Assembly: GCF_028369105.1 (NCBI RefSeq) | Contig: NZ_JAQNDO010000001.1 | Coordinates: 9,208,501-9,272,500 of the forward strand | Direction: 5' to 3' | DNA from: Polyangium mundeleinium | Lineage (GTDB): Bacteria; Myxococcota_A; Polyangia; Polyangiales; Polyangiaceae | DNA: 64,000 nt | Made by a program: the position numbers and the translations under genes | The notes under the pieces: generated by a model | What the model was told of the DNA's origin: nothing | What the model saw: only the letters and a program-made list of their open reading frames with translations | The model's database searches: none | Part shown: piece by piece, positions 2,269-59,095 of the stretch | Numbering within the stretch: position 1 is the stretch's first letter | Layout of the letters: the number at the start of each line of letters is the position of its first letter

Positions 2269-2533
2269 TGGGGCGCTGCCCCATGCCCCGCCCGGGGCTG
2301 TCCGCCCCGGGACCCGGACCAGGGCCAGCCCTGGACCTCTGGGCATCGACTGCGCGAAGCGCAGTCGATGCGGGGAACGTGCCCGTCGCCCGCTTGAGAC
2401 GCACCTCCAGGGTCTTGCCACCGGCCCGCTGGAAGAACTGCGCATCGCGCAGTTCTTCCATCCCCGGTCCAGGCCGTGCCTGGTCCGGGTCGAGGGGCGG
2501 ACAGCCCCCGCGGGGTCCGGGGCAGAGCCCCGG
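2269..2533. repeat. Composite hairpin element, copy A
   Basis: This intergenic element is organised symmetrically. Terminal hairpins are at 2269-2283 (TGGGGC, loop GCT, GCCCCA) and 2517-2533 (CCGGGGC, loop AGA, GCCCCGG). Inverted arms are at 2294-2323 and 2479-2508, identical in 28 of 30 positions after reverse complementing. Junction hairpins are at 2319-2334 (CCAGGGC, CA, GCCCTGG) and 2469-2483 (CCAGGC, CGT, GCCTGG). Inner hairpins are at 2344-2370 (CATCGACTGCGC, GAA, then its complement) and 2430-2460 (TGGAAGAACTGCGC, ATC, then its complement). It is homologous, in inverted orientation, to the element at 58765-59095. It ends 19 bp short of the acyl-CoA dehydrogenase stop codon, so it may also act as a terminator. 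Confidence 0.85.
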
Positions 2534-2552
2534 CGCGGCGGCCCAAGAAGGC

Positions 2553-3695
2553 TCAGCCTCCGAAGAGCTGCTTGGCGATCACGATCCGCTGGATCTGGCT
2601 CGTGCCTTCGTAGATCTGGAGGACCTTTGCGTCGCGCATGAGCTTCTCCACGGGGTACTCCTTCACGTACCCGTTGCCGCCGAAGACCTGCACGGCGTCC
2701 ACGGCCGTCTGCATCGCGCTGTCGGCGCCGTAGGCCTTCGCGAAGCTCGACACGATCGGATCTCGCACGCCGTGGTCGAGGTTCCAGGCGGCCTTCTGGT
2801 ACAGCAGCCGCGTCGCTTCTACGCGGATGGCCATCTCTGCGATCATCCACTGCACGAGCTGGTGGTTCGCGATCGGCGTGCCGAAGGTCTTGCGCTCCTT
2901 CGCGTACGCCACGCACTCGTCGAGGCAGCGGCGCATCAGGCCCGTCGCGCCCGCGCCGATGTCGGGACGTGTCTGGTTGAACGTCTCCATCGCGAGCTTG
3001 AAGCCCTTGCCCTCGGGTGCGAGCAGGTTTGCCTTCGGCACGACCACGTCCTCGAGGAAGATCTGCGCCGTGTCGCTCGCGCGTTGCCCGAGTTTGTCCT
3101 CCTTCTTGCCCACGCGGAGCCCGGGCGTGTCGCGATCCACGATGAACGCCGCGATGCCCCGGTGCCGGAGCTCGGTGTTGCTCGTCGCGAAGATCACGTA
3201 GAACCGCGCGTAACTCGCGTTCGTGATCCAGCACTTCTGCCCGTTCAACACGTAGTCGTCGCCGTGCTGCGCGAAGCGCGTCTGGAGGCCGGCCACGTCG
3301 CTGCCTGCGTCGGGCTCGCTCGTCGCGTAGCTCGCCATCACCGGCTCGCTCGTCAGCAGGCCGAGGTACTTCTTCTTCTGCTCCTCGCTCCCGCCGAGCT
3401 TGATCGGCGTCAGTGCGAGGCCGTTCGCGAGCAGGCTCGTCTGGATGCCCGTGCACCCGTACGCGAGCTCCTCCGTGATGATCGCGTTCTCGAGCTCGCC
3501 CATGCCCGACCCGCCGTATTCGGCCGGCACCGTCGGGTTGACGAGGCCGATCTCCCAGGCCTCTTTGAAGACCTCCATCGGGAAGCGCGACTCGTGATCA
3601 CACGCGGCCGCGATCGGGGTGATCCGCTCCTTCGTGAACCGGCGGGCGGTCTCGATGAGACCCTTGTGCTCTTCGGACAGCGAGAAATCCACCAC
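2553..3695 (-). CDS. Acyl-CoA dehydrogenase
   Basis: A 380-aa FAD-dependent acyl-CoA dehydrogenase, the usual length for the short/medium-chain family. It would catalyse the first step of beta-oxidation or of branched-chain acyl-CoA breakdown in the cytoplasm. The FAD/substrate region MASYATSEPDAGSD lies near residue 130. The C-terminal IYEGTSQIQR motif carries the expected catalytic Glu at about residue 363. The ATG start gives the normal MVDFSLSEEHKGL beginning. It is the last gene of a tight minus-strand run behind ccmC, the ccmD-like gene and a small membrane gene (gaps of 3, 1 and 6 nt), so it is probably co-transcribed with cytochrome c maturation. The substrate chain length cannot be fixed from sequence. 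Confidence 0.95.
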   Translation of the reverse strand: MVDFSLSEEHKGLIETARRFTKERITPIAAACDHESRFPMEVFKEAWEIGLVNPTVPAEYGGSGMGELENAIITEELAYGCTGIQTSLLANGLALTPIKLGGSEEQKKKYLGLLTSEPVMASYATSEPDAGSDVAGLQTRFAQHGDDYVLNGQKCWITNASYARFYVIFATSNTELRHRGIAAFIVDRDTPGLRVGKKEDKLGQRASDTAQIFLEDVVVPKANLLAPEGKGFKLAMETFNQTRPDIGAGATGLMRRCLDECVAYAKERKTFGTPIANHQLVQWMIAEMAIRVEATRLLYQKAAWNLDHGVRDPIVSSFAKAYGADSAMQTAVDAVQVFGGNGYVKEYPVEKLMRDAKVLQIYEGTSQIQRIVIAKQLFGG

Positions 3696-3701
3696 GGGCT
3701 C

Positions 3702-3845
3702 CTACTCCTTCATCCTGCGCTTGCGCTTCTCGAGTTCCGCGCGCACGGCGCGCGCGCCCAGGGTGTAACCGACGACGAGCCCGAGGAGAAGAACGCTCGG
3801 GATGTAGATCACGTGCTGAGGCGTGATCTGACCGAAGTCCGGCAC
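3702..3845 (-). CDS. Small single-pass membrane protein, second CcmD-like candidate
   Basis: A 47-aa protein starting at GTG 3845, one nucleotide past the stop of the ccmD-like gene. It has a short N-terminus, one hydrophobic segment (IPSVLLLGLVVGYTLGA) and a strongly charged C-terminal helix (RAELEKRKRRMKE). Topology and position resemble CcmD-type subunits, but the sequence is too short to assign by family. An upstream open frame reaches 4163 but would overlap the ccmD-like gene completely, so it is not used. It may be a second accessory subunit of the haem export complex or an unrelated small membrane protein. Confidence 0.6.
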   Translation of the reverse strand: MPDFGQITPQHVIYIPSVLLLGLVVGYTLGARAVRAELEKRKRRMKE

Positions 3846-3846
3846 G

Positions 3847-4113
3847 TCAGTCGCCCCCGCTCTTCGCGCGCGCCTTCTGGAGGGCCGCTTCCAGCGTCTC
3901 GATCCGCCGGTCGAGCCGACGCTGCCGTCGGAACATCGACGCGACGAACACGAGGACCACGATCCAGATGACCGCGTACGCCTCGACGAGCAGCTTCTCG
4001 CCGCTCTGCATCTGGTTGCCGCCCTCGACCGCGCGAAACGTCGTCGAGCGATCGTCGGCCGTCCCCTGGCCCGCCGTCCCCGGCGCTTGTTGTCCTGCTT
4101 GATCCGCCGACAT
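3847..4113 (-). CDS. ccmD: CcmD family haem-export accessory protein
   Basis: An 88-aa protein with a polar N-terminus of about 40 residues, one membrane segment containing AYAVIWIVVLVFVASMF, and a basic amphipathic helix (RRQRRLDRRIETLEAALQKA). The YAVIWI segment followed by RRQRRLxxRIxxLE is typical of CcmD-family proteins found beside ccmC. CcmD is known to stabilise release of holo-CcmE from the CcmABC transporter. It starts 3 nt after the ccmC stop, which supports the call. The N-terminal extension is longer than in the enterobacterial protein. Confidence 0.75.
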   Translation of the reverse strand: MSADQAGQQAPGTAGQGTADDRSTTFRAVEGGNQMQSGEKLLVEAYAVIWIVVLVFVASMFRRQRRLDRRIETLEAALQKARAKSGGD

Positions 4114-4116
4114 CGT

Positions 4117-4872
4117 CTACTCCTCACCCACGCCGAGCTCGAGCGCCTCTTCTTCGGCCTCACTCAGCCGCGCCGCTGCGAGCTCGATCCGCACGCGCGT
4201 CCAGATCAACACCACCGCGAGCAACGTGAACGTCAAGAACCCGAGCATGAGCGCGAGCTTCATGTCCGGATGCTTGAGCCCGCCGCCGCCCGACGTGATC
4301 ACCTTCGGGTGGTTGCCGCCCCACTTCTGCACCGAGTAGTGGATGATCGGCAGGTTCGCCGCGCCGAGCACCCCGAGCGCCGCCGCGAACTTCCGCTCCG
4401 AATCACCGTCGCCCGCGAACGCCCGCATGACCACGTACGCCACGTAAATCAGCACCGAGAGCAGCGCCGTCGTGAGCCGCGGATCCCAGGTCCAGTACAC
4501 GCCCCAGGCCTTCGCGCCCCAGAGCGCCCCGGTCACGAGCACGAGCACGCCCATCGCCACGGCGCACTCCGCGCCCGCACGCGCGAGTGCGTCCCAGCCG
4601 CGTGTCCCGCGGGCGAGGTACCCCGCCGAACCGAGGAAACACACGGCGGCCCCGACGTACATCGAGTACGCGATGGGCACGTGGAAGTAGAAGATCTTCT
4701 GGACGATGCCCATCGTCGACTCGACGGGCGCCTTGAAGAAGATCACCTGGAGCGTGATCAGAAACGCAGCCGCGCAGAGGGCGAGCACCGTGTAGAAGCC
4801 AACGTCCCCCAGGGAGCGAGAGCCGGACGTTTCGACTTTCGTTCCGGCTGCCAGAGCTTCGGTCGTCGCCAT
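4117..4872 (-). CDS. ccmC: Cytochrome c maturation haem-handling protein CcmC
   Basis: A 251-aa polytopic membrane protein with about six transmembrane helices. The tryptophan-rich haem-binding segment runs WGAKAWGVYWTWDPRLT (about residues 118-134). Two conserved His residues are in FYFHVP (His64) and PIIHYSVQKW (His178), the positions expected for axial haem ligands in CcmC. It loads haem onto CcmE at the periplasmic face for c-type cytochrome biogenesis. A TTG at 4896 would add eight residues; the ATG at 4872 is preferred. No ccmA, ccmB, ccmE or ccmF is visible nearby, so the rest of the system lies elsewhere. The protein heads the run that ends with the acyl-CoA dehydrogenase. Confidence 0.92.
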   Translation of the reverse strand: MATTEALAAGTKVETSGSRSLGDVGFYTVLALCAAAFLITLQVIFFKAPVESTMGIVQKIFYFHVPIAYSMYVGAAVCFLGSAGYLARGTRGWDALARAGAECAVAMGVLVLVTGALWGAKAWGVYWTWDPRLTTALLSVLIYVAYVVMRAFAGDGDSERKFAAALGVLGAANLPIIHYSVQKWGGNHPKVITSGGGGLKHPDMKLALMLGFLTFTLLAVVLIWTRVRIELAAARLSEAEEEALELGVGEE

Positions 4873-5001
4873 GGTGAGCGGCAACGGTAGTGGCAAGGTC
4901 GCGGGTGTTCAAGGACCCACACCTCCGCGTCGCACGGCCCCTCCTGGAAAGTATCCCTCGGCGACGAGCTGATCTAGACTCGCGTCCGAGCCGCGATCCC
5001 C

Positions 5002-6813
5002 ATGGCCCCCATTCGCCCCGAGCAAGCTCCGGCAGATGTACAGGCCGACGTCCCCGCGTTCCGTCCCGGTACCATCGTCGACGGTCGCTACCGCGTCCTC
5101 CGGCTCATCGGAGGCGGCGGCAACGGCCTCGTGCACGAGGTCGAGCACGTCCGCACCGGCCAGCGCCTGGCCCTCAAGTCCCTGCTCGATCCGACGACGT
5201 ACCAGCGCCTCGAACAAGAGGCGCGCGCGACGAGCCTGCTGAAGAGCCCGCGCGCGGTGAAGATCGTCGACATGGGCATGAGCCCGACCGAGGGCCCGTA
5301 CCTCGTGATGGAGCTGCTCGCCGGGCAGAGCCTGCGCGAGCTCTTGCACGAGGCGGGGCAGCTCCCGCTCGAGCTCACGGTCAACGTCGCGCTGCAGGTC
5401 GGCGAGTGCCTCGCCGAGGCGCATACGCAGGGCATCGTCCACCGTGATCTCAAGCCCGACAACATTCACCTCGGCCCGGGCCCGAGCCCCGGCGTCTACG
5501 ACGTCAAGCTCCTCGACTTCGGCATCGTCAAGATCGCCAGCGACGCGCCCGTCCCCGGCGGCTCGCTCACGCGCACGGGCTCCACGGTCGGCACGCCGTA
5601 CTACATGAGCCTGGAGCAGCTCCGGAACCCCTCGGGCGTCGACGGCCGCAGCGATCTCTACTCGCTCGGCGTCGTGCTTTACGAGTGCTTGACCGGCCGC
5701 AAGCCCTACGACGCGGACACCATCGGCGACCTCGTCTTCGCGCTCTGCTCGGGCCCGCCCACGGACATCGCGCGGCTGCGCCCCGATCTGCCGCAGCCCG
5801 TGGGCAAGGCGATCATGCGCGCGCTCGCGCCCGACCGCGACGATCGACAAGGCAGCGTGCTCGACCTCTGCCGCGAGCTCGCGCCGTTCGGCGATCGTTC
5901 CCTCTCCGCGTGGATGAACGAGCCGTCGCGCCCCGCCGCGCCCGAACCGCCGCGCCCCTCGCACGCAGGGCCTTTCGGCGGTGCGCCGACGCCCTCGGGC
6001 CTGCGGTCGATCCCGTCCAGCGAAGCGACCCAAGCCTTCCCGCTGCCCGACGGCCCCATGCCGCCGATCGACGAGCTCACGCCGTCCTTGCCGTCGAGCC
6101 CGGGACACGACGACGACGACGAGCCCGCCGAGCGGCGCGACACGCCCACGACGTTCTACGTCAAACCCGAACTGCCTGAACGCGCGCCCGACAGCGAGAA
6201 GACGCGCATGCTCGTCGAGCCGAGCCGCGGGCAACGCCAGTACGCGATCCCGTCGGAGAACATCGACGACCCGCCGACGGCGCCTGTCAAGCCGGGCGAC
6301 TTCGCGGCCGCGAAAAACACGTTCGGCCCGGGCAACAAGTACGCGAAGACGGCGCCGATCGACACGAGCCAGTTCCCCGAGCTCCAGAACCTGCCGCCGC
6401 TCGGCCAGTTTGGTCCTCCAAATCCGGGCGGCTTCGGGGCGCCCACGCCGACGGGCTCCGGCGTCTACGCGGCGCCGCCTCCTGGCATGATGGGCCAGCC
6501 TGGGATGCCGCCGGGCATGTTCCGCCCGCCGCCCATGCCGGGCCAGCTCATGACCTCGCAGAGCAACCTGCCGGCCGTGAACATCCCCGGCACGACGGGC
6601 CCCTTGCCCATGGGCCCCGGCGCGCCGCCCCCGTGGATGGCGCGGGCCGGTCAGCCCACGCTGGCGCCTCCGCCGCCCGCGGGCGGCGGCCTCGCGGCGC
6701 TCGTGAATTTCTGGCAAAACGCCCCGCCGCGCACGCAGCTCGCCATTGCGGTGGGCAGCGCGAGTGGCCTCGTCGCGCTCCTGCTCATCCTGCTCTGGAT
6801 CATCGTCCGCTAG
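5002..6813 (+). CDS. Membrane-anchored serine/threonine protein kinase
   Basis: A 603-aa Hanks-type kinase. The Gly-rich loop is LIGGGGNG (residues 35-42), the ATP-binding Lys is Lys59, the catalytic loop is HRDLKPDN (147-154) and the DFG motif is at 172-174, so it should be active. The P+1 region reads GTPYYMSLEQL, where the usual APE is replaced by SLE. A Pro/Gly-rich linker of about 280 residues separates the kinase from one C-terminal transmembrane helix (about 579-601). The kinase is therefore cytoplasmic, with almost nothing outside the membrane. It is divergent from ccmC (129 nt gap) and convergent with the TolC-like gene. Substrates are unknown. Confidence 0.95.
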   Translation: MAPIRPEQAPADVQADVPAFRPGTIVDGRYRVLRLIGGGGNGLVHEVEHVRTGQRLALKSLLDPTTYQRLEQEARATSLLKSPRAVKIVDMGMSPTEGPYLVMELLAGQSLRELLHEAGQLPLELTVNVALQVGECLAEAHTQGIVHRDLKPDNIHLGPGPSPGVYDVKLLDFGIVKIASDAPVPGGSLTRTGSTVGTPYYMSLEQLRNPSGVDGRSDLYSLGVVLYECLTGRKPYDADTIGDLVFALCSGPPTDIARLRPDLPQPVGKAIMRALAPDRDDRQGSVLDLCRELAPFGDRSLSAWMNEPSRPAAPEPPRPSHAGPFGGAPTPSGLRSIPSSEATQAFPLPDGPMPPIDELTPSLPSSPGHDDDDEPAERRDTPTTFYVKPELPERAPDSEKTRMLVEPSRGQRQYAIPSENIDDPPTAPVKPGDFAAAKNTFGPGNKYAKTAPIDTSQFPELQNLPPLGQFGPPNPGGFGAPTPTGSGVYAAPPPGMMGQPGMPPGMFRPPPMPGQLMTSQSNLPAVNIPGTTGPLPMGPGAPPPWMARAGQPTLAPPPPAGGGLAALVNFWQNAPPRTQLAIAVGSASGLVALLLILLWIIVR

Positions 6814-6934
6814 CAGGGGGCTGATAAACTTGCTGCGCGCCCCGAATCGTCGGTCGGGCTCCTCGGAATACTGAAGTATTCCTGCGTCGCCCTCCCTAGC
6901 TTCGAGGCGCTCGCTGCGTTTCTCAGCCCCCTGC
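6813..6934. repeat. 122-bp imperfect palindrome filling a convergent gap
   Basis: The ends are perfect 12-bp inverted repeats (GCAGGGGGCTGA at 6813-6824, complement at 6923-6934). The exact centre is a perfect 18-bp hairpin, GGAATACT-GA-AGTATTCC (6865-6882). Folding the two halves together, about 40 of 61 positions pair. The element starts at the last base of the kinase stop codon and ends one base before the TolC stop. It could serve as a bidirectional terminator, or it could be a REP/MITE-like insertion. Confidence 0.75.
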
Positions 6935-8317
6935 TCAAAGGCCGTCGGGCGCGATCGCGTCCCAGCCGGTGGCTTTGGCGAGCCGGCTCATCGCGAGATC
7001 GAGCTCCATCGTCGCGTTCATCAAGTTGAACCGGTTCGTCGCGAACGCCTTCGCGGCATCGAGGACGTCTTTCTCCTCGCGCGTCCCAACATCGATGCCT
7101 TGCTGCACCGTGACCAGCCACTTCCGGGCGTACGACACGGCCTTCGAATACGCGTCCACGCGCCTTTGCCAGTCGACGACCTCGGCGTAGGCCGTCTCCA
7201 CCTCGACCCCCGCGCCGCCGAGCGCGAGTTTTTCCGTCGCGCGCATTTCTTCGAGCTGCGCCTCGGCGTACTTGATGCGGGCCGATTGCGGCAGGAAATC
7301 GAGCTTCCACTGGAACGTGATGGCCGCGCCGTACCAGAAGAAGTTCGCCGTATCCGAGCCGAACGGGTTGATCTGGTTCGCCACCTCGGGCGCCCGCGCA
7401 TACCCCGCGTTCAAGCCGAGCCCGATATCGGGGAAGAGCTGCGCCCGCGCCACCTCGACCTGCGCGCGCCGCGCTTGCACGCCGGCCCGCGCCATCGCGA
7501 GCTCCGGCCGATGCAGCCGCGCCGCCGTCAGGTACCGCGACACGTGCCCGAGCTTGTGGGTCGGCGGCTTGAGCGGCACGTCGGGAATGTCGAGCTCCGG
7601 GATGCCCGTGAAAAACCTGAGCCCCGCGAGCGTCACCGACGTGTACCGCGTGACCTCGGCCTCGCGCACTTCGAGCTCGGCCGTGTACGTCTGCAGCTTG
7701 AAGAGCTCGATCGGATCGCCCTCGTCCTCCTCGATCGACGCCTTCATCTTGCCGATGGCCTTGTCGATCGCCGCGCGCACGTCCTTGAGGAGCAGGGCAC
7801 CGTCGCGCGCGAGCTGCAGGCCGAAATAGGCCCGGCGCACGTCGAGGCGCACGGCGTCGCGCTCCTTCTCGACGTTCGCCTTGTTCACCTCGACGTTCGC
7901 CTCGGCCGCCTCCCACAGGTTCGTGATCTTGCCGAAGGTCCAGAGCGGCACGACCCCGTCGACGCTGGCCCTCCATGCGAGCCCGAGGCTGCTCGTCAGC
8001 GACACGTCCGTGTTCGGGCTGAACATGTTGTTGCCGAGCACCGTCGGCGCGAGACCCACGCCGCCGGTCATGCGGAACTGGCTGAACGGCGCGCGGTGGG
8101 CCTCGTCGAGTTGCGCGCGCACCTGCGCGAGCCGCGCCCGGGCCGCGAGCACGTTCGGGTGGTTTCGCTCGGCGATCTCCAGGATCTTCCCGAGATCGTA
8201 GACGACCTTGTCCGCGGCCTCCGCGGGCGCCGGCAAGGCCAGAAGGCCCAGGGAAAGGGCCGCCCCGAGGAACCATCGCCGGATCGACCGCTGCGCCATG
8301 TCCGCGCTCTTTTTCAC
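6935..8317 (-). CDS. TolC-family outer membrane efflux channel protein
   Basis: A 460-aa TolC/OEP-family protein with a cleavable signal peptide (RWFLGAALSLGLLALPAPAEA) and two long alpha-helical repeats rich in Ala, Glu and Arg. Such proteins trimerise to form the outer-membrane duct of type I secretion or RND efflux. The GTG at 8317 and the ATG at 8299 are both possible starts; I kept the longer one. No membrane-fusion protein or inner-membrane pump is adjacent, so the partner is unknown. It lies 25 nt behind the sigma-54 regulator gene and is probably co-transcribed with it. The 122-bp palindrome follows its stop directly. Confidence 0.88.
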   Translation of the reverse strand: MKKSADMAQRSIRRWFLGAALSLGLLALPAPAEAADKVVYDLGKILEIAERNHPNVLAARARLAQVRAQLDEAHRAPFSQFRMTGGVGLAPTVLGNNMFSPNTDVSLTSSLGLAWRASVDGVVPLWTFGKITNLWEAAEANVEVNKANVEKERDAVRLDVRRAYFGLQLARDGALLLKDVRAAIDKAIGKMKASIEEDEGDPIELFKLQTYTAELEVREAEVTRYTSVTLAGLRFFTGIPELDIPDVPLKPPTHKLGHVSRYLTAARLHRPELAMARAGVQARRAQVEVARAQLFPDIGLGLNAGYARAPEVANQINPFGSDTANFFWYGAAITFQWKLDFLPQSARIKYAEAQLEEMRATEKLALGGAGVEVETAYAEVVDWQRRVDAYSKAVSYARKWLVTVQQGIDVGTREEKDVLDAAKAFATNRFNLMNATMELDLAMSRLAKATGWDAIAPDGL

Positions 8318-8342
8318 AGGGGGCCGCTCGCTGCAACCGTTG

Positions 8343-9815
8343 TTAGCCTTCGTCGTCGTCGCCGGCGCCGTCGTCCGAGGTCGCGCGGACCTTTTTCATG
8401 AGCCGCCGGAAATTCGAGCGATCCATCCCCGCCTGCCGCGCCGCCTCGCTCACGTTGTTGCTCGTTCGCTTGAGCAGCCGCTCCACGTAGGCGCGCTCGA
8501 ACGCGAACGCCGCCTTCTCCTTCGCCTGCGTGAACGGCAGCTCCGACAGCGTATCGCCCCAGAACGCCCGCGTATCGCCGGGCGCCCCATCCTCCTCCGC
8601 GGGCGCCTCGTCGCGACCGAACGGCAGATCCGAGGGCAGGATCGAGTCTCCGCGCGTCATCACCACCGCGTGCTCGATCGCGTTCTCGAGCTGCCGCACG
8701 TTCCCCGGCCAGGGCTGCTCGCGCAGGAGCCGGAGCGCCTCGACCCCGATCCGCTTGATGTCCCGGCCGCTGCGCCGCGCGTACTTGTGCAAGAAGTGGT
8801 ACGCGAGCAGCGGGATGTCCTCTTTTCGTTGCCGGAGCGGCGGCAAATGGACGGGGATCACGGCGAGCCGATAATAAAGATCCTCCCGGAAGCGCCCCGA
8901 CGCGATCCGCTCCTTCAGGTCCACGTTCGTCGCGGCGATCACGCGCACGTCGACCGTCTTTGGCTCCGTCGCGCCCACGCGCTTGATCTCGCCCTCGGCG
9001 AGCGCGCGCAAGAGCTTCGCCTGCGCGCTCAGCGGCAGATCGCCGATCTCGTCGAGGAACACCGTGCCCTTGTCGGCGAGCTCGAAGAGCCCCGGCCTGT
9101 CTTGCGCGCCGGTGAACGCGCCGCGCATGCTGCCGAAGAGCTCGGTCTCCACGAGCGTCTCGGGGATCGCGCCGCAGTTGATCGCGCGGAGCGGCCGGTC
9201 GCTCCGCAGGCTGTGCTGATGGATCGCGCGCGCGACGAGCTCCTTGCCCGTCCCGTTCTCCCCGAGGATCAACACCGTCGACGTCGTCGGCGCCGCGCCG
9301 AGCGCGATCCGGTAGACGTCCTGCATGCGCGACGAACGGCCGATCAGCTCGCCGAACCGCTCGTGCTCCACGAGGCGTTGCTCGAGCAGGCGCGTCCGAT
9401 CGACGAGCCGCTTGTGCTCGGCGGCCTGCATGAGCGCGAGCGCCACGGTCTCCGTGGGCCCGAACGGCTTCGTCAGGAAGTTGTAGGCGCCTTGCCGCAC
9501 GGCCGCGACGGCCGTGTCGATGTCGCCGAACGCCGTCATCATGACGACCTCGACCTCGGGGTGTTGCTCCTTGATGCGCGCGAGCACTTCCATGCCGCTC
9601 GGGCCGGGCATCATCACGTCGAGCAGCACCACGTCGACCGCGCGCGCCGTCGAGAGCAGCGTGAGCGCGGCGGCGCCGTCCTCGGCCGTCATCACGTCGA
9701 AGCCCTCGGCGAGGAGCACGCGCGCCAGGCTGCGACGCAGCGCCGGCTCGTCATCGACCACTATCACGTGCGCCTTCGGCGCCTTGGTCGCCCCCTGCGT
9801 CGTCTCGCTCGGCAC
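8343..9815 (-). CDS. NtrC-family sigma-54-dependent response regulator
   Basis: A 490-aa regulator with three domains. The receiver covers about residues 14-130, with acidic residues D21/D22, phospho-acceptor Asp66 and a Lys in LTKPF. The AAA+ domain covers about 155-390, with Walker A GENGTGKE (185-192), the sigma-54 contact loop GAFTGA (232-237) and Walker B TVFLDEIGDL (251-260). A Fis-type HTH lies near the C-terminus (NNVSEAARQAGMDRSNFRRLMKK, quoted in part as NVSEAARQAGMDRSNF). All key residues are present. No histidine kinase gene is adjacent. It lies between an LptD-like gene and a TolC-like gene, which suggests control of envelope functions (inference). I saw no convincing -24/-12 promoter in the window. 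Confidence 0.95.
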   Translation of the reverse strand: MPSETTQGATKAPKAHVIVVDDEPALRRSLARVLLAEGFDVMTAEDGAAALTLLSTARAVDVVLLDVMMPGPSGMEVLARIKEQHPEVEVVMMTAFGDIDTAVAAVRQGAYNFLTKPFGPTETVALALMQAAEHKRLVDRTRLLEQRLVEHERFGELIGRSSRMQDVYRIALGAAPTTSTVLILGENGTGKELVARAIHQHSLRSDRPLRAINCGAIPETLVETELFGSMRGAFTGAQDRPGLFELADKGTVFLDEIGDLPLSAQAKLLRALAEGEIKRVGATEPKTVDVRVIAATNVDLKERIASGRFREDLYYRLAVIPVHLPPLRQRKEDIPLLAYHFLHKYARRSGRDIKRIGVEALRLLREQPWPGNVRQLENAIEHAVVMTRGDSILPSDLPFGRDEAPAEEDGAPGDTRAFWGDTLSELPFTQAKEKAAFAFERAYVERLLKRTSNNVSEAARQAGMDRSNFRRLMKKVRATSDDGAGDDDEG

Positions 9816-9854
9816 GTCGCTTCCATGGTCGCAACCGAATCCCCCGAGTGCAAG

Positions 9855-48118: not shown

Positions 48119-48129
48119 GGGGGTAGCTT

Positions 48130-48717: not shown

Positions 48718-48733
48718 CTCAGGTCTCCCTTGC

Positions 48734-49291: not shown

Positions 49292-49445
49292 GGGCTGCCT
49301 CCTGCGATGCTCGCTCTCGCGAGCGTACTGCGATGGGGACGCATGACGCGCCCCCTACACGCTACCGTTGCCCGCCCTCGTGGGCAGGGCATTGCCCTTT
49401 GTACGACAACGGATCTGGGCGAAAGTTTCTCCCTAGATCACGGCG

Positions 49446-49473
49446 GGGGCGGCGCGGGCGCAGGCGCCGCCCC
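49446..49473 (-). promoter_or_regulatory. Intercistronic hairpin between ExbB- and ExbD-like genes
   Basis: GGGGCGGCGC (49446-49455) pairs perfectly with GCGCCGCCCC (49464-49473) around an 8-nt loop. It lies 11 nt after the ExbB-like stop, in transcription order before the ExbD genes. No U-run follows, so it could be a partial terminator, an RNA-stability element or neither. Confidence 0.6.
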
Positions 49474-49484
49474 GGAGGTGGATT

Positions 49485-51585: not shown

Positions 51586-51595
51586 AGCGTCGCCC

Positions 51596-52159: not shown

Positions 52160-52827
52160 GCACCGAAGACGCCTTCGATCCGGAGCCTGGGCAAGACAGC
52201 GGCCCGAACGCGCCCCGCTCGGCCCCGAACCAGCGCCCGCGGCCTCCGCAGCCGCAGAAGGGCAGCCTCGTCAAGTACAAGGCCGCCCTGAGGAAGGCGA
52301 AGCGCAAGAACGCGCGCGAGCCCGAGATCGACTTCCTCAACATCACGGCGATGCTCGACCTGATGACCATCATCCTGGTCTTCTTGCTGAAGAGCCTCGC
52401 CTCGTCGGCCGGCGCGATCCCGCAGTCCGACGACCTCCGCCTGCCGCAGTCCGTGATGGTCGGCGAGCCGAGCGACGAGGGCGTGCTCGTCGTCGTCTCG
52501 AAGACGCAGATCCTGGTCGGCGAAGAGTCCACGCCCGTCGTGACCTTGCCGAGCCGCGAGCAGCTCGCGCAGTCGGGCATCGACGCCAAGCACAAGCGCA
52601 GCGGCCCGAACGACCTCTACATCGTGCCGCTGGCGAACTCGCTCCAGCACGCGCGCGAGATCGACAAGGCCGTCCGCGCCGCGAAGGGCCTCGACCCGTC
52701 CACGTCCGAGGCGCGCATCGTCGCCGACAAGACCACGCCCTACCGGCTGCTCATCGAGGTGCTCTACACCCTCGGCCAGAGCGAGTTCGGCAAGTACCAC
52801 CTGATGATCCTGAGCGGGAAGAAGTAA
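52156..52827 (+). CDS. ExbD/TolR-family motor protein (plus module, second)
   Basis: A 223-aa ExbD-like protein. A Pro/Gln-rich, then Lys/Arg-rich N-terminus (about 55 residues) precedes the membrane segment ITAMLDLMTIILVFLLKSLA, with the Asp retained. The periplasmic domain includes ILVGEESTPVVTLPS and TTPYRLLIEVLYTLGQSEF. The start at ATG 52156 is coupled to the previous stop. With the two genes before it, this gives one TolQ-like and two TolR-like proteins, the same composition as the AglR-AglQ-AglS motor of Myxococcus gliding. Confidence 0.9.
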   Translation: MSTEDAFDPEPGQDSGPNAPRSAPNQRPRPPQPQKGSLVKYKAALRKAKRKNAREPEIDFLNITAMLDLMTIILVFLLKSLASSAGAIPQSDDLRLPQSVMVGEPSDEGVLVVVSKTQILVGEESTPVVTLPSREQLAQSGIDAKHKRSGPNDLYIVPLANSLQHAREIDKAVRAAKGLDPSTSEARIVADKTTPYRLLIEVLYTLGQSEFGKYHLMILSGKK

Positions 52828-52857
52828 GGCCCGCGGCCGCAAGTCGCGGCGCGGGCC
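52828..52857. terminator. Terminator-like hairpin between convergent genes
   Basis: GGCCCGC pairs with GCGGGCC, and the inner GCCGC pairs with GCGGC around the loop AAGT plus one base, with one bulge. It sits directly after the ExbD stop and 43 nt from the SNF2 gene stop. Short AA and TT flanks are present but no long U-run. Confidence 0.6.
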
Positions 52858-52900
52858 CCTTCCCAGGACCCCTCCCTGGTCCCTCCCCTTCCCTCGTCCG

Positions 52901-55900
52901 TCAGTCGACGGAGAAGAGCTCCTCCACGTCCGCCTTCGTGAGCTTCTTGGCGCCGCCCTGATCCTCGCTGAGGACCGAGGCCACGAGCTCGCGCTTCTTC
53001 GCCTTGAGCTGCAGGATCTTCTCCTCGATCGTCCCCTCCGCGACGAGCCGGTACGCCGTCACGACGCGGGTTTGCCCGATGCGGTGGGCGCGATCCGTCG
53101 CCTGCTGCTCCACGGCCGGATTCCACCACGGATCGAAGTGGATCACCGTGTCCGCCGCCGTCAGGTTCAGGCCCGTCCCGCCGGCCTTCAGGCTGATCAG
53201 GAAGACCGGCACCGTCGGATCGTTCTGGAAGCGCTCCACGCGCTCCATACGATCCTTCGTCGAGCCGTCGAGGTACTCGTAGGGCACCCCGTCCTCCTTC
53301 ATCGCCCGCTCGATGATCTTCAGCATCATCACGAACTGGCTGAAGACGAGCACCTTGTGGCCGCCCTCGACCGCGTTCGCGATGAGCTCGCGCAGCGCCA
53401 CGAGCTTGCCCGAGTCCTCGTCCGAGAAGTCGCGCGGCAGGCCGAGGAGCCGCGGATCGCAGGCCGCCTGACGCAGCCGCGTGAGGCCCGCGAGGATCTG
53501 GATCTGGCTCTTCGCGATGCCGACGCGCTCCACCTCGCCGAGCACCTGGGCCCGCACCTCGCGCGCCACCTGCAGGTAAATCGACCGCTGATCCCCCGTG
53601 AGATCGCAGATCTGATCGGTCTCGATCTTCTCGGGCAGGTCCTTGGCGACCTCCTGCTTCGTACGGCGCAGGATGAAGGGGTGGATGATCGAGCGCAGGC
53701 GCTGCGCGGTCTTGTAGTCGCCGGCCTCGATCGGCCGCGCCAGGCGCGCCTCGAACTTGTCGAGCGTGCCGAGCAGGCCCGGTGAGACGAAGTCGAAGAT
53801 CGACCAGATCTCGGAGAGGCGGTTCTCGATCGGCGTGCCCGTGAGCGCGAGCCTGCGGCGCGCCTTGAGGCGCTTCGCGGCGGCCGCGGTCGCGGAGAGC
53901 GGGTTCTTGATGTGCTGCGCCTCGTCGAGGATCGCGTAGGTGAGATCGAGCTTCGCGAGGAACTCCTCATCGCGGCGGAGCAGCGCGTAGCTCGTGATGA
54001 TGACCTCGGCCTCCTGGACCTCCTCGATCTGGTCCTTGCGATCCGCGCCGTGCCAGAGCGCCACCCTGAGCGTCGGCGCGAACCGGACGAGCTCGCGCTC
54101 CCAGTTCGTCACGACGCTCGTCGGGGCCACGATCAGCGCTTTGACGTGCTTCTCCTCCTGCTTGACGCTGAGGAGCAGCGCGATCGTCTGCACCGTCTTG
54201 CCGAGGCCCATGTCGTCCGCGAGCACGCCGCCGGAGCCGATGTCGTGGATGAACTTGAGCCACGAGAGGCCGGCTTCCTGGTAGGGGCGCAACGTCGCCT
54301 TGAGCGCCCGCGGCTTCTTCGTGCTCTCGATCTCGTCGATGCTCGACAGCTTGTGGAAGAGCTCGCGCGCGCCCTGGGCCACGTTCGAACCGCTCACCTG
54401 CGAGAGCAGCTCCTGGATGCGGCCCGCGTGCGCGAGCGGCAGCTTTCCGCTGCGGCCAGCCGCCGTCATGAGCTCGATCTCGCGGTCGAGCATCGAGCGG
54501 ATCGTGTCGGGATCGAGCGGCGCGAACGAGCCGTCTTCGAGGCGCACGTACTTCTTGCCCTCGGTGAGACAGCGGCGCAGCTCGTCGCGATCGACGGCGA
54601 TGCCCTCGCTCTCGAACGAGAGCCGCACGTTGAGCCAGTCCATGCCGCTCGTGACCTTGGCGAAGACGCCGAGCGGCTTGTGCCGGACCTGCGTGTCGAC
54701 GAGGTCCTCCGGGACGAAGAGATCCCAGTCCTCGGGCAGCTCTGCGAGGCCCTCGCTCCAGAAGCGGATGGCCGCGTCGCCGCTCGCCACGAACTCCTGG
54801 CCCGTCTCGTCGGGCTTGAGGCCGAGGCCGAGCAGCCGCGCCGCCGCCTCCTGCTGCAACGCGATGTCGACCCGCACGCAACGCGCGCGCTTCATGCCCT
54901 CCTCGGGCGGCTGCACGAGCACGGGCGGCGAGATCCCGTCGGCGCGGACCTGCACTTCCTCCTCGCCATACGCGGCGTAGAGCTGCACGTGCGCCTCGAC
55001 GAGCGAGCCGCCCGCGCGCATGCGGAACGTCGGGGGCAAATCCACGACGTCCGCGATCTGCGCGAGATCCGGAAGCTCCGCGCCGACCTCCAGCGCGACC
55101 TTCGGCAAGCCCTGCATGATCAGGCGCACGAGGTCGCGCATCGGCTCGCCGATCGTGGGCGAGCGCAAGAGCCTGCGCATCGCGGCGGGCGAGACGCGCT
55201 TGTCGAGGCGCCGCGCGATGCCCTCCTGCGTGTCGACGTGCCAGCCGGGCCAGCCCTCGAACCAGCCGCCTTGCAGCAGCGTGAAGCGGCGCCTGTCCGT
55301 CGGGCGCTCGAAGCTCGCCTTCACGATGATCGTGTCGCCGCCGACGGTCTCCAGATCGAAGCGCGGCCGCAGCGGCTCCTCGGCGAAGCGGAGCTGCATG
55401 AGCGCGGGCTCGAGCAGCACGCGCTGGCCTTCCAGCAAGGGCAAAAGCTCGGCGACGTCCTCGCCGCGCACGTCGACCGCGGGGTGCCGCGGGTTGCCGC
55501 TCTCGAAGCGGGCGAGGAGGCGCAGGGCGTCGCGATCGGGCGTCGGATAGAGCGCCTGCCAGGCGAGGGCCGTCGAGGGCAGGATCGGCACGCGCGCGTC
55601 GGCGTCGAGCACCGTGACCGTGAGCGCGCCCTGGCGGACGTGCAGGCGGAACTCCACGCGCCGCGAGCCGCCGAGCCCCTCGGGGGGCAGCCACGCGCCG
55701 ATGCCGGTTTGTTTCGCCGTCGCGTCGTGCTGCGGCGCGGTGATCACGGACGAGCCGGGCGGTCCCATCGCGGCCATCGAGGTCCTCTCGCTTGCGCCCA
55801 TGTGCCCCATCGAGGCTCCCGGGCCGGGGCTACCGAGCGGCGGCTGCGTGCCGCGCGGCCGATCGCGCCTTCGCACGCGCTTGAGCGCATCGCCGCCGGC

Positions 55901-56263
55901 GTGCGCGGTCTGCGGCATCATCGGGGCGGGCACGGGGTCGCGACGGGGCTGCGCGCCGCGGGCTTGATCCCGCAGCGTGATGAGCAGCGCGGCGACGTGC
56001 TTGCAGTGCTGGCCCCCCTTCGAGAACGTCGGGCACGAGCAGTAGGACTTGATGCCGTCCGGGGTGAGCTCGACCTTCACCGGGTAAGGCTCGGAGTCGC
56101 TCGCGCGGACGACGCCGCTCGCGCTCATTTCCAGGACATCGATGTCCTCGACGACACGGCGACGGAAGTATTCGAGGCCGCGGAGGAACGTGCGAGCGCC
56201 GAGCAAACGGCGCAGCCCGCGGTCGCTCAAGGTGGAGAGTGCGTCGGTGATCGGAGGCGGCAC
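52901..56263 (-). CDS. SWIM-SNF2 DNA-dependent ATPase
   Basis: A 1120-aa SWI2/SNF2-type protein, typical of bacterial HepA/RapA-like ATPases. The N-terminus carries a SWIM zinc motif (C-x-C then CxH: YCSCPTFSKGGQHCKH, about 73-88). A central region of about 500 residues follows. The ATPase domain has Walker A ADDMGLGKTVQTIA (about 677-690) and Walker B DEAQH (about 776). The C-terminal helicase domain has VFLISLKAGGTGLNLT and DRAHRIGQTRVV. All motifs look intact. It probably remodels nucleic-acid complexes rather than unwinding DNA. Start is GTG 56263; no Shine-Dalgarno was seen. It lies 72 nt downstream of the pyrophosphatase gene. Confidence 0.95.
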   Translation of the reverse strand: MPPPITDALSTLSDRGLRRLLGARTFLRGLEYFRRRVVEDIDVLEMSASGVVRASDSEPYPVKVELTPDGIKSYCSCPTFSKGGQHCKHVAALLITLRDQARGAQPRRDPVPAPMMPQTAHAGGDALKRVRRRDRPRGTQPPLGSPGPGASMGHMGASERTSMAAMGPPGSSVITAPQHDATAKQTGIGAWLPPEGLGGSRRVEFRLHVRQGALTVTVLDADARVPILPSTALAWQALYPTPDRDALRLLARFESGNPRHPAVDVRGEDVAELLPLLEGQRVLLEPALMQLRFAEEPLRPRFDLETVGGDTIIVKASFERPTDRRRFTLLQGGWFEGWPGWHVDTQEGIARRLDKRVSPAAMRRLLRSPTIGEPMRDLVRLIMQGLPKVALEVGAELPDLAQIADVVDLPPTFRMRAGGSLVEAHVQLYAAYGEEEVQVRADGISPPVLVQPPEEGMKRARCVRVDIALQQEAAARLLGLGLKPDETGQEFVASGDAAIRFWSEGLAELPEDWDLFVPEDLVDTQVRHKPLGVFAKVTSGMDWLNVRLSFESEGIAVDRDELRRCLTEGKKYVRLEDGSFAPLDPDTIRSMLDREIELMTAAGRSGKLPLAHAGRIQELLSQVSGSNVAQGARELFHKLSSIDEIESTKKPRALKATLRPYQEAGLSWLKFIHDIGSGGVLADDMGLGKTVQTIALLLSVKQEEKHVKALIVAPTSVVTNWERELVRFAPTLRVALWHGADRKDQIEEVQEAEVIITSYALLRRDEEFLAKLDLTYAILDEAQHIKNPLSATAAAAKRLKARRRLALTGTPIENRLSEIWSIFDFVSPGLLGTLDKFEARLARPIEAGDYKTAQRLRSIIHPFILRRTKQEVAKDLPEKIETDQICDLTGDQRSIYLQVAREVRAQVLGEVERVGIAKSQIQILAGLTRLRQAACDPRLLGLPRDFSDEDSGKLVALRELIANAVEGGHKVLVFSQFVMMLKIIERAMKEDGVPYEYLDGSTKDRMERVERFQNDPTVPVFLISLKAGGTGLNLTAADTVIHFDPWWNPAVEQQATDRAHRIGQTRVVTAYRLVAEGTIEEKILQLKAKKRELVASVLSEDQGGAKKLTKADVEELFSVD

Positions 56264-56335
56264 GTTTGAATGGGGGGGGTTTGTCCCGCGGCGAGCGGGC
56301 GCGTCGATCGGGTGGTTCGCGCCTTCTGGCGCGGG

Positions 56336-58627
56336 CTAGACGAAGAACGGCAAAAAGACGAGCGTGACGACGGGAAGCATTTTCACGAGCACGTGAATCG
56401 CGGGCCCGGCGGCGTCCTTCAGCGGATCGCCGACCGTGTCACCGAAGGCCGCCGCGAGGTACGTCGGGTTGTCGACCCGCGCGCCGGTCTCGTCGACGAG
56501 GTACCGCCCGCCGTGCGCCCCGGTCACGATGTACTTCTTCGCGTTGTCCCAAGCGCCCCCCGCATTGCCGAGCAGGAGCGCGCCAAGGACGCCTGCGATC
56601 GTCGCGGCCAGGATCAAGGCGGCGACCGCGTCGGCAACGGCTAGAGGATTATCTTCCGTTCCGGCGAAGCGCAAGCCCAGTCCCACCGCGATCGGCACCG
56701 AGGCGGCGACCAGGGCCGGCGTGATCGCGTGGCCAAGCGCCGCGCGGCTGCCGAGCTCCACGCAGGCGTCCAGGTCGGGCGCCCCGAGCCCAGCCCGCGT
56801 GGCAGGCGCCGAAGACTGGCTCGGCCGCGAGGCCCGCGGGTGCGGCGGCGTCCAAGCCGTGCTCGTCCCGAGCGACGAGGGCGCGTTGATCTGCCGGCGC
56901 GCCTCCTCAAGGATGCGCCTGGCCGCGCGCGAAACGCCGCCGATGCACCGCGACGCGAACCATACGACCAAGACGATGCCAACGGCCGCGCCGAGGTACA
57001 CCTCCGGCCGACCCACCTGCAGCGCAGTTGCGGCCGCAGCGGCCGGTTTGCCCGCAGGTAGCCGGCGCTTGGCCTCGTCCAGCCAAACCGACACGAGCAT
57101 CGACGTCGCGAGCAGCGCCGCGGCGCCCGTGTGCGCCCGCGTGAACGCCTTCGCCGTGTTGCCAACGGCGTCGAGGACCACCGTCCGGCCGCGCACGTCG
57201 GGGCGCTCGCGCCCGATGGTCATCTCCACGATCCCGCCCGCGCTGTCGATGATCGGAGCGAAGCCAGCCATCGCGAGCGCATAAGCGCTCGTGCCGAGCA
57301 GCCCCATCGTCGCCACCGCGATGCCGAGCGCGCCGCCGCCATCGAGGCCGGTGCGCGCGCCAAGGACGTGCGCCGACGCCACCGCCGCACCGAGGATCAC
57401 GAGCGGAGCGAGCGCGCTCTCCAGGCCCACCGAAGCCCCGCGGAGGAGCGCGAGCGGCGGACCGACGCGCGCAGCCTCGGCGATCTCGCGGACGGGCCGG
57501 TAGCGGTGCTCCGTGTAGTACTGCGCCACGAAGAGCAGGAGGATCCCCGCGGCCATGCCCACGGCCGCCGCGCCAAAGAGCGGCAGCCAGTGCTTGCCGA
57601 GCAGCCACTTCGCCGCACCCGCAGTGCCCACCGCGCCGAGCAGCGCCGTCACGAACAAGCCGCGGGCGAGCGCATTCATCGGATCCTCGCGGTCATCCGT
57701 GCGCACGACCATCACCCCGAACATCGCAGCGAGGACGCCAAAGGCGCGCGTGATGACGGGGAACAACATGATCGAGAGCACGCTCGGGATGCCCTCGTTC
57801 TGGCGGAAGACAGCAGCCGCAAGCAGCATCGCGCCAAGGTTCTCCGCCGCCGTCGAAGCAAACGCGGACGCCGCCTTGCCCGCGCCCTCCCCCGCGCAGT
57901 CACCAGCGAGGTCCGCGATGGTGGCAGGATTCCGGGCATCATCCTCGGGCAGGCCGAGCTCCCGACCCGCAAGATCAGCGCCCATGTCGGCGCTCTTCGC
58001 GAACGCACCGCCGCCAAGCTCGGCAATGAGCGCAGCAAACGCGCCCCCCAGCGCGTAACCAGCGATGACGAGCGGAATCGAGGGAGCAAGCCTCAGCGCG
58101 TTGCCAGGCTCGGCCGAGAAGCCGCCCTTCTGCGCAAACACCGCCGCAAAGAGGCCCACGAGCCCGATGAGCCCGAGCGAGACAGAAAACAGCCCCGAGA
58201 CCGCGCCACCACGGATGGCGATCTGCAGCGCATGGTCAAGCGAGCGTCGCGCACCACTCGCAGCCCGGACATTCGCACGCGTCGCCGTCCAAGCAGCAAC
58301 ATGCGCAGCCGCGACCGCCGACCCAACGCCAAGCGAGAAGGAGAGCGTGAGCCAAGCCCCAAGCTCGAGCGGCGGGAACGCCTGAACCTCAGGCTTCTGC
58401 CGAGCCAGGCCATACGCGAGGAAGATGCCGCCCCCAGGCACAGCCGAGACCGCAAGGATGGTGCCACGCAAGCGGTTCGTGAAGTACACCGCCGCCGCAC
58501 GGATACGAGCCGCAACACGCGGCATGTCCCCCTCACCCGTAGGACAACCAAGCACCCAGCGCGCGAGGTACCCCGCGAACCCGATGCCAAGCAGGCTGAT
58601 GCCAAGGATGAGCGCGAGCTCAGTCAT
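56336..58627 (-). CDS. hppA: Divergent proton-pumping membrane pyrophosphatase
   Basis: A 763-aa membrane pyrophosphatase with about 16 transmembrane segments. Conserved parts include GGAFAKSADMGADLAGRELG, PEDDARNPATIAD, and the C-terminal FGDTVGDPLKDAAGP. The central acidic motif, usually DNVGDNVGD, reads DLAGDCAGE, so the third Asp is a Glu and the Asn/Val positions are changed. The segment DAVGNTAKAFTRAHTG has Lys where K+-independent H+-pumping types have it, suggesting a K+-independent proton pump. A Pro/Ser-rich loop (ASRPSQSSAPATRA) interrupts the C-terminal third. Because catalytic-site residues vary, activity needs testing. Start ATG 58627 (MTELALILG). Confidence 0.85.
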   Translation of the reverse strand: MTELALILGISLLGIGFAGYLARWVLGCPTGEGDMPRVAARIRAAAVYFTNRLRGTILAVSAVPGGGIFLAYGLARQKPEVQAFPPLELGAWLTLSFSLGVGSAVAAAHVAAWTATRANVRAASGARRSLDHALQIAIRGGAVSGLFSVSLGLIGLVGLFAAVFAQKGGFSAEPGNALRLAPSIPLVIAGYALGGAFAALIAELGGGAFAKSADMGADLAGRELGLPEDDARNPATIADLAGDCAGEGAGKAASAFASTAAENLGAMLLAAAVFRQNEGIPSVLSIMLFPVITRAFGVLAAMFGVMVVRTDDREDPMNALARGLFVTALLGAVGTAGAAKWLLGKHWLPLFGAAAVGMAAGILLLFVAQYYTEHRYRPVREIAEAARVGPPLALLRGASVGLESALAPLVILGAAVASAHVLGARTGLDGGGALGIAVATMGLLGTSAYALAMAGFAPIIDSAGGIVEMTIGRERPDVRGRTVVLDAVGNTAKAFTRAHTGAAALLATSMLVSVWLDEAKRRLPAGKPAAAAATALQVGRPEVYLGAAVGIVLVVWFASRCIGGVSRAARRILEEARRQINAPSSLGTSTAWTPPHPRASRPSQSSAPATRAGLGAPDLDACVELGSRAALGHAITPALVAASVPIAVGLGLRFAGTEDNPLAVADAVAALILAATIAGVLGALLLGNAGGAWDNAKKYIVTGAHGGRYLVDETGARVDNPTYLAAAFGDTVGDPLKDAAGPAIHVLVKMLPVVTLVFLPFFV

Positions 58628-58764
58628 GAGAAGGACATCGCGACCATCCGCCCGTGGGTTCGTCAACACGAACCCCATCCGCATGGAAGGCGGGCCGCGG
58701 GGAGGTCCACTACCGCGATGCGCCCGTCAGGGCAAGTGCGCTCTCGGATGCCGGAGGCGTCGCG

Positions 58765-59095
58765 CCGGGGTTTCACCCCGGACCCGACCAGGGGCTGTCC
58801 GCCCCTGGACCCGGACCAGGCACTGCCTGGACCGAAGGTGGAAGAACTGCGCAAAGCGCAGTTCTTCCAACGGGCCCGTGGCAAGACCATGAAGGTGGGT
58901 TTCAAGCCGGCGACGACCACGTTGCCGGTTGAACCAGCAGCGCTTCGGCCTTGATTGGCAGGATCGTCGCCAGTCTTGCCAGCGGCTGTTCGATGAACTG
59001 CGCGGAGCGCAGTTCATCGACCCCGAGTCCAGCGCTTGCGCTGGTCCGGGTCCAGGGGCGGACAGCCCCTGGTGGGGCCTGGGGCAACGCCCCAG
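58765..59095. repeat. Composite hairpin element, copy B
   Basis: Same plan as the copy at 2269-2533. Terminal hairpins are at 58765-58781 (CCGGGGT, TTC, ACCCCGG) and 59079-59095 (CTGGGGC, AAC, GCCCCAG). Inverted arms are at 58791-58820 and 59041-59069; the 29 nt of the right arm are a perfect complement. Junction hairpins are at 58816-58830 (CCAGGC, ACT, GCCTGG) and 59029-59044 (CCAGCGC, TT, GCGCTGG). Inner hairpins are at 58839-58869 (TGGAAGAACTGCGC, AAA) and 58990-59020 (TCGATGAACTGCGC, GGA). The left part of the core is about 85 percent identical to copy A over 68 nt in inverted orientation. The core is longer here. It lies between the pyrophosphatase start and the TolC stop. Confidence 0.9.

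Follow-up and report, generated by a model that had tools for sequence, protein, structure and literature searches.

The window analysed in this study, 64,000 nt long (G000:C1:9208501-9272500), was taken from the 13.25-Mb genome of Polyangium mundeleinium, which is available in two contigs. It carries two related hairpin elements, referred to here as element 1 and element 2. We consider it rather probable that both loci are copies of a miniature inverted-repeat transposable element (MITE) that was spread by a group of Tn5-like insertion sequences (IS). MITEs are short non-autonomous transposons that lack a transposase gene. The assignment to this IS group is based on three findings: element ends match the terminal repeats of the IS, the element at genome position 2855462 is enclosed by a 9-bp duplication, and another element is the neighbour of an IS target. 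The transposase of the IS group probably mobilizes the element in trans, as judged from the sequence. A preliminary description of the window had suggested a non-autonomous mobile unit, and this was supported by filled and empty sites between species, by the repeats in common with the IS and by one perfect target duplication.

The hairpin family and its Tn5-like ends

The inner-hairpin motif ACTGCGCnnnGCGCAGT occurred 220 times in the genome, and the same pattern reversed occurred 0 times. The mirror-image plan that had been described for both loci is thus confirmed and lies far above chance. A BLAST search with element 2 found at least about 40 additional genomic places among the best 40 candidates scored; copies elsewhere in the genome are abundant. 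Of the 220 hairpins, 198 entered the working site list, which together with 6 BLAST starts comprised 204 positions; the unlisted hairpins lie beyond about 6.95 Mb. The 95 stretches round the listed sites were merged with the window, and 1.65 Mb of sequence was analysed in this way. In each copy, the parts follow the order terminal hairpin, arm, junction hairpin, inner hairpin and core, and then the mirror image. Full elements (n = 87) measured about 290-360 bp including both margins. Each half was about 110 nt long with four stem-loops, and the distance between the inner hairpins fell into main classes of about 151 and 121 nt. Single halves were also numerous in this set.

The halves were sorted by their inner stems into types A (TGGAAGAACTGCGC), B (TCGATGAACTGCGC) and D (TTGAAAAACTGCGC) and a rare type C; one set of rows labelled AB also holds D-type halves. 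Among 83 cases of paired halves, 51 were AB or BA, 26 were BD or DB, two were DD, one was AA, one was CA (element 1 of the window), two had an unclassified end, and none was BB. The counts of AB/BA, BD/DB and BB indicate that in nearly every element a B end is combined with an A-like one. The orientations AB (25) and BA (26) were about equal.

Aligning outward from the terminal hairpin revealed a 19-bp terminal repeat, CTGAGCATTGGTCTCATCT or near variants, most commonly at an offset of 32 nt. When the two repeats of the IS were used alone, 26 of 294 element ends matched with at most 5 mismatches at 26-41 nt outside the terminal hairpin. The two control sets, shuffled windows and random genomic windows, each gave 2 matches in 5,880. 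With two extra repeat forms, 39 ends matched at ≤6 mismatches, 26 of them at exactly 32 nt; two of the four forms used for this count, and for the division into 214 and 35 ends below, derive from element ends. The decayed repeat consensus was still enriched position by position across all 294 ends. TGAGC was most frequent where the repeat predicts it, with 13 ends at -31 and a next highest count of 7.

The Tn5-like IS is 1,504 bp long with 19-bp terminal repeats and is present in the genome in four nearly identical full copies. Its protein contains the domains Tnp_DNA_bind, DDE_Tnp_1 and Dimer_Tnp_Tn5. Two copies are flanked by the 9 bp GGCACGGCC on both sides, the flanks of the third are alike at 8 of 9 positions, and the fourth has no duplication. 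Three of the four full copies sit in junction hairpins of elements, and one such element is damaged on its far side. The element at 7915035 adjoins GGCACGGCCTGGACC on one side, which is the IS's own target. At 2855462, an element carries the repeat on either side and is enclosed as a whole by the perfect 9-bp duplication CCGGCCAGG. The element carries no gene, and by eye it has only the terminal repeat in common with the IS. The earlier statement that no transposase is nearby fits what was examined in the partly annotated window; the likely partner IS is found elsewhere in the genome.

An autonomous version was sought in the long gaps between left and right halves. These gaps contained no transposase of the element's own; they yielded the IS and a long-core subfamily. 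The members of this subfamily (L062, L066, L079, L107, L110 and L146) have roughly 535-770 nt between the halves and a minisatellite core of GGCACGGCCTCGTACCTCCAA-like units. Composites of a full element and an extra half about 427-436 nt away were present at L099 (5825689), L108 (6301407), L109 (6316154) and L105 (6198011), and were similar across these places. Comparison of the 1,246 proteins predicted near copies yielded 13 clusters with at least two members, among which the IS (three members) was by eye the sole transposase cluster. Another cluster, with two members, resembles a serine recombinase and lies at a distance of 3-4.5 kb to the closest full element.

Several observations weigh against a MITE of this IS group. 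No terminal repeat was recognizable (at least 9 mismatches) at 214 of the 294 ends, and three of the four ends of the window elements scored 9, 10 and 11 mismatches. The fourth, outside 2269, belongs outside the scored set; ATGGATCTCAGG at that place resembles the repeat by eye. Both repeats were present at ≤7 mismatches in six pairs, and the duplication was 9/9 in one of them and 1-3/9 in the other five (permutation P = 0.20). By eye, no target duplication was visible at the seven filled/empty sites described below. TGA alone was found in 23 ends at -13, 20 at -31 and 17 at -12, and the stop of a gene lay exactly at the repeat's own TGA in 4 of 130 ends. The peak at -13 and the few exact stops indicate that the repeat rarely provides the stop codon of the gene.

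Because the repeat seldom holds the stop, and because two repeat forms are element-derived, the MITE reading is slightly weakened and a different explanation gains a little strength. According to it, the IS merely prefers hairpins as targets, and the outside repeats are relics of lost IS copies, not element ends. Three of the four full IS copies do lie inside elements while similar repeats lie outside. The repeats are, however, mostly 31-32 nt beyond the terminal hairpin and point outward as an element's own ends would, and one element has both repeats and a perfect 9-bp duplication round the whole. We regard relics of this kind as improbable.

Position in the genome and occurrence in relatives

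Genes were predicted with a codon-usage finder, and short predicted genes within elements were ignored. The 87 full elements lay between convergent genes in 46 cases, tandem genes in 38 and divergent genes in 3. For element-free gaps of at least 30 bp, the numbers were 103 convergent, 424 tandem and 213 divergent. The median distance from the element margin (9 nt beyond the terminal hairpin) was 13 nt to a stop codon (130 sides) and 82 nt to a start codon (44 sides). The listed sites span 1.31 to 10.19 Mb of G000:C1, and 0 of the 204 listed positions fall in the remaining 4.35-Mb arc. This arc starts at 10.19 Mb and continues past 0 to 1.31 Mb; the best DnaA match (11.65 Mb) lies within it, and the sites cluster opposite.

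A REPIN-like family, which the preliminary description had proposed, would consist of paired repetitive extragenic palindromes (REPs) moved by a RAYT (TnpA-REP) Y1 transposase. The placement and behaviour of the elements agree with this proposal: they are inverted paired hairpins, intergenic and multi-copy, single halves occur, and stop codons are near. They also serve as targets of the IS as REPs do; REPs are described as targets of IS, including those of the IS4 family (PMC1525189). A search of this genome for the Y1 transposase that defines REPINs gave 0 matches to PF01797 (Y1_Tnp), whereas the control set matched in 5 of 14 cases. In addition, the halves are about 110 nt long, not 20-40 nt, and the ends match the Tn5-like IS. 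Judged on this one genome, we find a REPIN hardly credible.

By DNA similarity, the family was present in 6 of 6 genomes of the same genus and in 0 of 92 others of the same bacterial family (7 candidates scored per genome). Across the order (183 genomes), a model search with strict filters recovered the 6 members of the genus and, in 3 further genomes, weak matches. An inner-hairpin scan of public genomes gave at least 112 Polyangium stretches among the 120 matches listed. The best match outside the genus (G066, 57.7 bits) consists of one hairpin array of similar build next to an unrelated hypothetical gene, and was kept as a lead, not as a member. The matches in G024 and G126 resembled GC-rich hairpins by eye. 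The G066 array (L341/L354, G066:C141:168-1904) precedes the gene of a 518-residue protein with an FDRLVFRGTL motif and no Pfam or NCBIfam match. Distant relatives are found on plasmids of Paraburkholderia, Rhodococcus and others.

The site of element 1 has no element in G077, G056, G014 and G093, and has a half element and other DNA in G086 (P. fumosum). The other DNA in P. fumosum is about 4.7 kb long and contains an IS1-type transposase gene (PF03400; L175:2378-3664) beside hairpin remnants. In G014 the site of element 2 is empty, while G086 and G077 have an element there. G056 and G093 also contain element sequence at this site, but synteny breaks at it (G056:C44 near 19714, G093:C108 near 65500); the contigs of some relatives end in elements. 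These synteny breaks suggest rearrangement via element copies. Filled and empty sites between species numbered seven in all, two belonging to the window elements and five to others. The 'empty' rows of G056 L185:413 (inner-hairpin-like matches only), G014 L055 (gap of 1,286 nt) and G014 L214:8362 (gap of 529 nt) were dropped as unclear.

At sites occupied in two species, the element was flipped in 8 of 20 hand-picked comparisons, which corresponds to 6 of 15 sites. This comparison by hand dropped reciprocal rows, most half-element rows and own_6074445/L214, and element 2 versus G056 was added from a separate comparison. Usable cores were obtained from 16 of the 18 tried. A core at a shared site resembled its counterpart no more than it resembled other copies (mean ranks: 0.45 in 10 unflipped comparisons, 0.38 in 6 flipped ones), which speaks against inversion in place as the only process. 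Conversion between copies or repeated re-occupation must therefore also act. The spacer that separates stop codon and element varies from species to species. The copies of the relatives were partly chosen by similarity to element 2, and comparisons between genomes are biased accordingly.

Pairing and upkeep of the stems

Covariation was examined in two alignments. The large one contained 307 halves from six genomes; for the small one, 60 diverse halves were picked from 282, and one at a contig end was left out, giving 59. In the large alignment, the column pairs with the strongest covariation include those expected for the stems of all four hairpins (inner, terminal, arm and junction). The contact between the arm loop and the foot of the junction hairpin also covaries (C-G in 248 halves, T-A in 52), and is Watson-Crick in 301 of the 307. 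Non-paired columns specific to subfamilies also rank high in this list. In the small alignment, an unguided consensus fold gave 31 pairs, 14 of which were changed on both sides. The named structure, including the loop contact, had two-sided changes in 16 of 34 pairs, and 99.1% of its 1,999 cells were paired (17 unpaired); the stem positions do not vary independently. Two-sided changes filled 188 cells compared with a mean of 59 after shuffling, and 0 of 500 shuffles reached this value. The paired stem changes noted at the outset were thus borne out on the diverse halves. When the partners were moved by 1-3 columns, pairing dropped to 31-47%. 'Further pair types' were not above shuffling in these 59 halves (25 versus 22.9, reached by 57 of 500 shuffles).

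RNA stems are normally expected to show wobble intermediates. In the named stems, standard one-sided changes were found in 2 cells versus 188 two-sided ones. A marginal pair of the unguided fold (columns 32-50) was the exception: it had 15 changes on one side only and was broken in 10 cases. Counted as distinct events, the mismatches in the 307 halves numbered 14 for G-T, 19 for A-C and 42 for others. The G-T and A-C tallies had looked asymmetric in the A-to-B alignment, where the PK_B row is out of register by one base and is disregarded. In the 307 halves, the asymmetry came mainly from two recurrent sites and was gone when distinct events were counted. The mean entropy was 0.25 in the stems versus 0.68 in the core, which indicates that the sequence of the stems is conserved too.

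The element could be a structured RNA or an element of the 3'-untranslated region that is selected for folding and acts on the transcript end, on stability or in ribosome stalling. Strong covariation that extends to a pseudoknot-like contact is in line with this explanation, and so are the short median distance to stop codons, the enrichment between convergent genes, the persistence of the stems beyond the transposition ends and the wobble of the marginal pair. REPs are reported to stall ribosomes when they lie within 15 nt of a stop codon (PMC12306157). The counts of distinct G-T and A-C events, however, show no wobble preference in either reading, the named stems have very few one-sided changes, and both orientations are about equally frequent. 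An Rfam scan of the window at the gathering score also gave 0 matches. The structured RNA considered in the preliminary description is thus unsupported, and we think this explanation unlikely.

Pairing of about 99%, many double changes and very few G·U intermediates favour upkeep at the level of DNA (template switching or conversion) or strict selection over ordinary RNA evolution. The selective version states that DNA hairpins, as protein-binding or cruciform sites, are kept perfect without any contribution of copying. It is quite possible: the stems are conserved in sequence as well as in pairing, and strict Watson-Crick pairing suits a DNA ligand. On the other side, we know of no protein that binds these hairpins, and the inner loops bear an unexpected mark. 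Among 51 rare inner loops, 15 were exact reverse complements of three common triplets, compared with 5.8 expected (P = 0.0004). Such spacer inversion, together with arm homogenization, is reported as a footprint of template switching (PMC8604942).

The condition of the stems was also compared between ends with and without the repeat. At ends without a recognizable repeat (n = 214), the mismatch was 0.9% in the inner stem and 0.3% in the terminal stem. At ends with a recognizable repeat (n = 35), it was 1.6% and 1.2%, respectively. Where the repeat is gone, the stems are no less perfect, and the hairpins therefore appear to outlive the ability to transpose.

We tentatively propose a transposon-born repeat with self-repairing palindromes, in which, once the transposition ends have decayed, template switching during replication and conversion between copies would keep the stems, invert the loops and flip elements in place. 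A copying process that keeps arms matched had been raised earlier; it is still a leading idea, given the excess of inverted inner loops and the near-perfect stems at ends without the repeat. Inverted forms of the common loops of the junction and terminal hairpins were absent from the tables examined, and the arms of whole elements are not homogenized, as the heterotypic ends show. Both points count against the proposal, and the second means that template switching is applicable only inside single hairpins. Template switching is also reported to be able to keep RNA stems perfect (PMC8794818).

On the MITE reading, the complete form has on each side the 19-bp CTGAGCATTGGTCTCATCT-type repeat, about 13 nt of GC-rich sequence and then the hairpin array, with a variable core between the two sides. 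Each array consists of the terminal hairpin, the arm hairpin, whose loop can pair with the foot of the next stem, the junction hairpin and the 14-bp inner hairpin, and the two ends are distinguishable, with B on one side and A or D on the other. The transposase of the IS group would have spread the element by cut-and-paste. At the 3' ends of genes, insertions may be retained because they cause little damage. Once inserted, an element would lose its terminal repeats by decay and keep its hairpins. In the reading that we prefer, template switching within each palindrome and conversion between copies would then repair the stems and invert the inner loops. Whole elements may be flipped when their ends recombine or when the site is occupied anew. 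The host may also benefit from a hairpin at the 3' end, which would favour retention. If self-repair is true, many immobile copies stay intact at gene ends without ordinary compensatory evolution, and two-sided covariation is a by-product of mutation, not proof of a selected RNA.

Elements of the window and comparison with known systems

All twelve hairpins of the preliminary description, three per side in each element (terminal, junction and inner), were found at their positions, with loops of 2-3 nt. The elements, first placed at 2269-2533 and 58765-59095, extend to approximately the limits in Table 1. The description of the 'inverted arm' GGGGCTGTCCGCCCC needs a correction, since the arm is itself a hairpin, GGGGC-TGTCC-GCCCC. 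Its loop covaries, in the manner of a pseudoknot, with GGAC at the base of the junction hairpin; a half therefore contains four stem-loops plus this contact. The right terminal hairpin lies 19 nt from the stop codon of a minus-strand gene in both elements (genes 2553-3695 and 59115-60767, respectively).

Table 1. Parts of the two window elements (window positions) and copies of the Tn5-like IS (genome positions)
Feature	Position	Description
Element 1	2259..2543	Short-core copy; left half type C, right half type A
Element 1 left terminal hairpin	2269..2283	TGGGGC-gct-GCCCCA
Element 1 left arm hairpin	2294..2308	GGGGC-TGTCC-GCCCC; read from sequence and family structure
Element 1 left arm-loop contact	2300-2303 and 2316-2319	Loop GTCC able to pair with GGAC; pseudoknot-like
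Element 1 left junction hairpin	2319..2334	CCAGGGC-ca-GCCCTGG
Element 1 left inner hairpin	2343..2371	Stem 13 bp, loop GAA
Element 1 right inner hairpin	2430..2460	Stem 14 bp, loop ATC
Element 1 right junction hairpin	2469..2483	CCAGGC-cgt-GCCTGG
Element 1 right arm hairpin	2494..2508	GGGGC-GGACA-GCCCC; read from sequence and family structure
Element 1 right terminal hairpin	2517..2533	CCGGGGC-aga-GCCCCGG
Element 2	58756..59104	Left half A, right half B
Element 2 left terminal hairpin	58765..58781	CCGGGGT-ttc-ACCCCGG
Element 2 left arm hairpin	58789..58807	CAGGGGC-TGTCC-GCCCCTG; read from sequence and family structure
Element 2 left arm-loop contact	58797-58800 and 58813-58816	Loop GTCC able to pair with GGAC
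Element 2 left junction hairpin	58816..58830	CCAGGC-act-GCCTGG; the Tn5-like IS inserts at this hairpin in other copies
Element 2 left inner hairpin, type A	58839..58869	Stem 14 bp, loop AAA
Element 2 right inner hairpin, type B	58990..59020	Stem 14 bp, loop GGA
Element 2 right junction hairpin	59029..59044	CCAGCGC-tt-GCGCTGG; read from sequence
Element 2 right arm hairpin	59052..59072	CCAGGGGC-GGACA-GCCCCTGG; read from sequence, covariation seen
Element 2 right terminal hairpin	59079..59095	CTGGGGC-aac-GCCCCAG
Tn5-like IS, full copy	G000 8042312	L143
Tn5-like IS, full copy	G000 5449392	L089
Tn5-like IS, full copy	G000 5332737	L355
Tn5-like IS, full copy	G000 6280184	L356
Tn5-like IS, partial fifth match	5311870-5312033	Beside another element

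Immediately ahead of element 1, the window contains a second repeat-like stretch with TTGCAGCGCCGCAGG-type motifs (1866-2245). Sequence akin to this stretch occurs elsewhere in G086 and G056, and it is missing from the orthologous site in G077, G056, G014 and G093.

Covarying stems are widely held to prove a functional RNA. Covariation is strong in this family (16 of 34 pairs), yet its surviving ends are those of a DNA transposon, wobble is very rare, and where the ends have been lost the stems are no less perfect. The combination of covariation, transposon ends and rare wobble provides a natural test of whether template switching or selection maintains paired stems, and the many copies in six genomes with matched empty sites are the material for it. 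The hairpins also attract the very IS that probably spread them. No published description of this hairpin family turned up, as judged on titles and abstract openings, with most of the subscription literature outside the search. In the same search, no MITE built of such a hairpin array, with stems that outlast its ends, was seen.

The element was compared with four known systems. MITEs and IS-derived miniature elements (MITEAba12, TIMEs) are likewise short, lack a transposase gene and have terminal repeats in common with a resident IS; filled and empty sites occur in both, and one copy here has a target duplication of the length made by the IS. The Polyangium element probably differs in its four stem-loops per side with a pseudoknot-like contact, its two end types, its near-perfect hairpins in spite of mostly unrecognizable repeats, and its strong bias to the 3' ends of genes.

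Tn5 itself has 19-bp terminal repeats and makes 9-bp duplications. Tn5/IS50-like IS of the IS4 family share such repeats and duplications with what was seen here for the IS, whereas the Polyangium element has no gene and, by eye, only the terminal repeat in common with the IS. In Wolbachia, inversion of IS by recombination between terminal repeats is reported for 9% of loci (PMC3004938). The same site likewise carries opposite orientations in different genomes there, but the flipped share here is 6 of 15 sites and the shared-site cores are not recognizably orthologous. REP, BIME and REPIN sequences are also palindromic and extragenic, lie just behind stop codons and are IS targets. Unlike them, the Polyangium element is much larger, has Tn5-like ends and has no Y1 transposase found in this genome. 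The element is a MITE in look and behaviour and REP-like in placement, and the family thus connects a MITE with the REP-like position behind stop codons.

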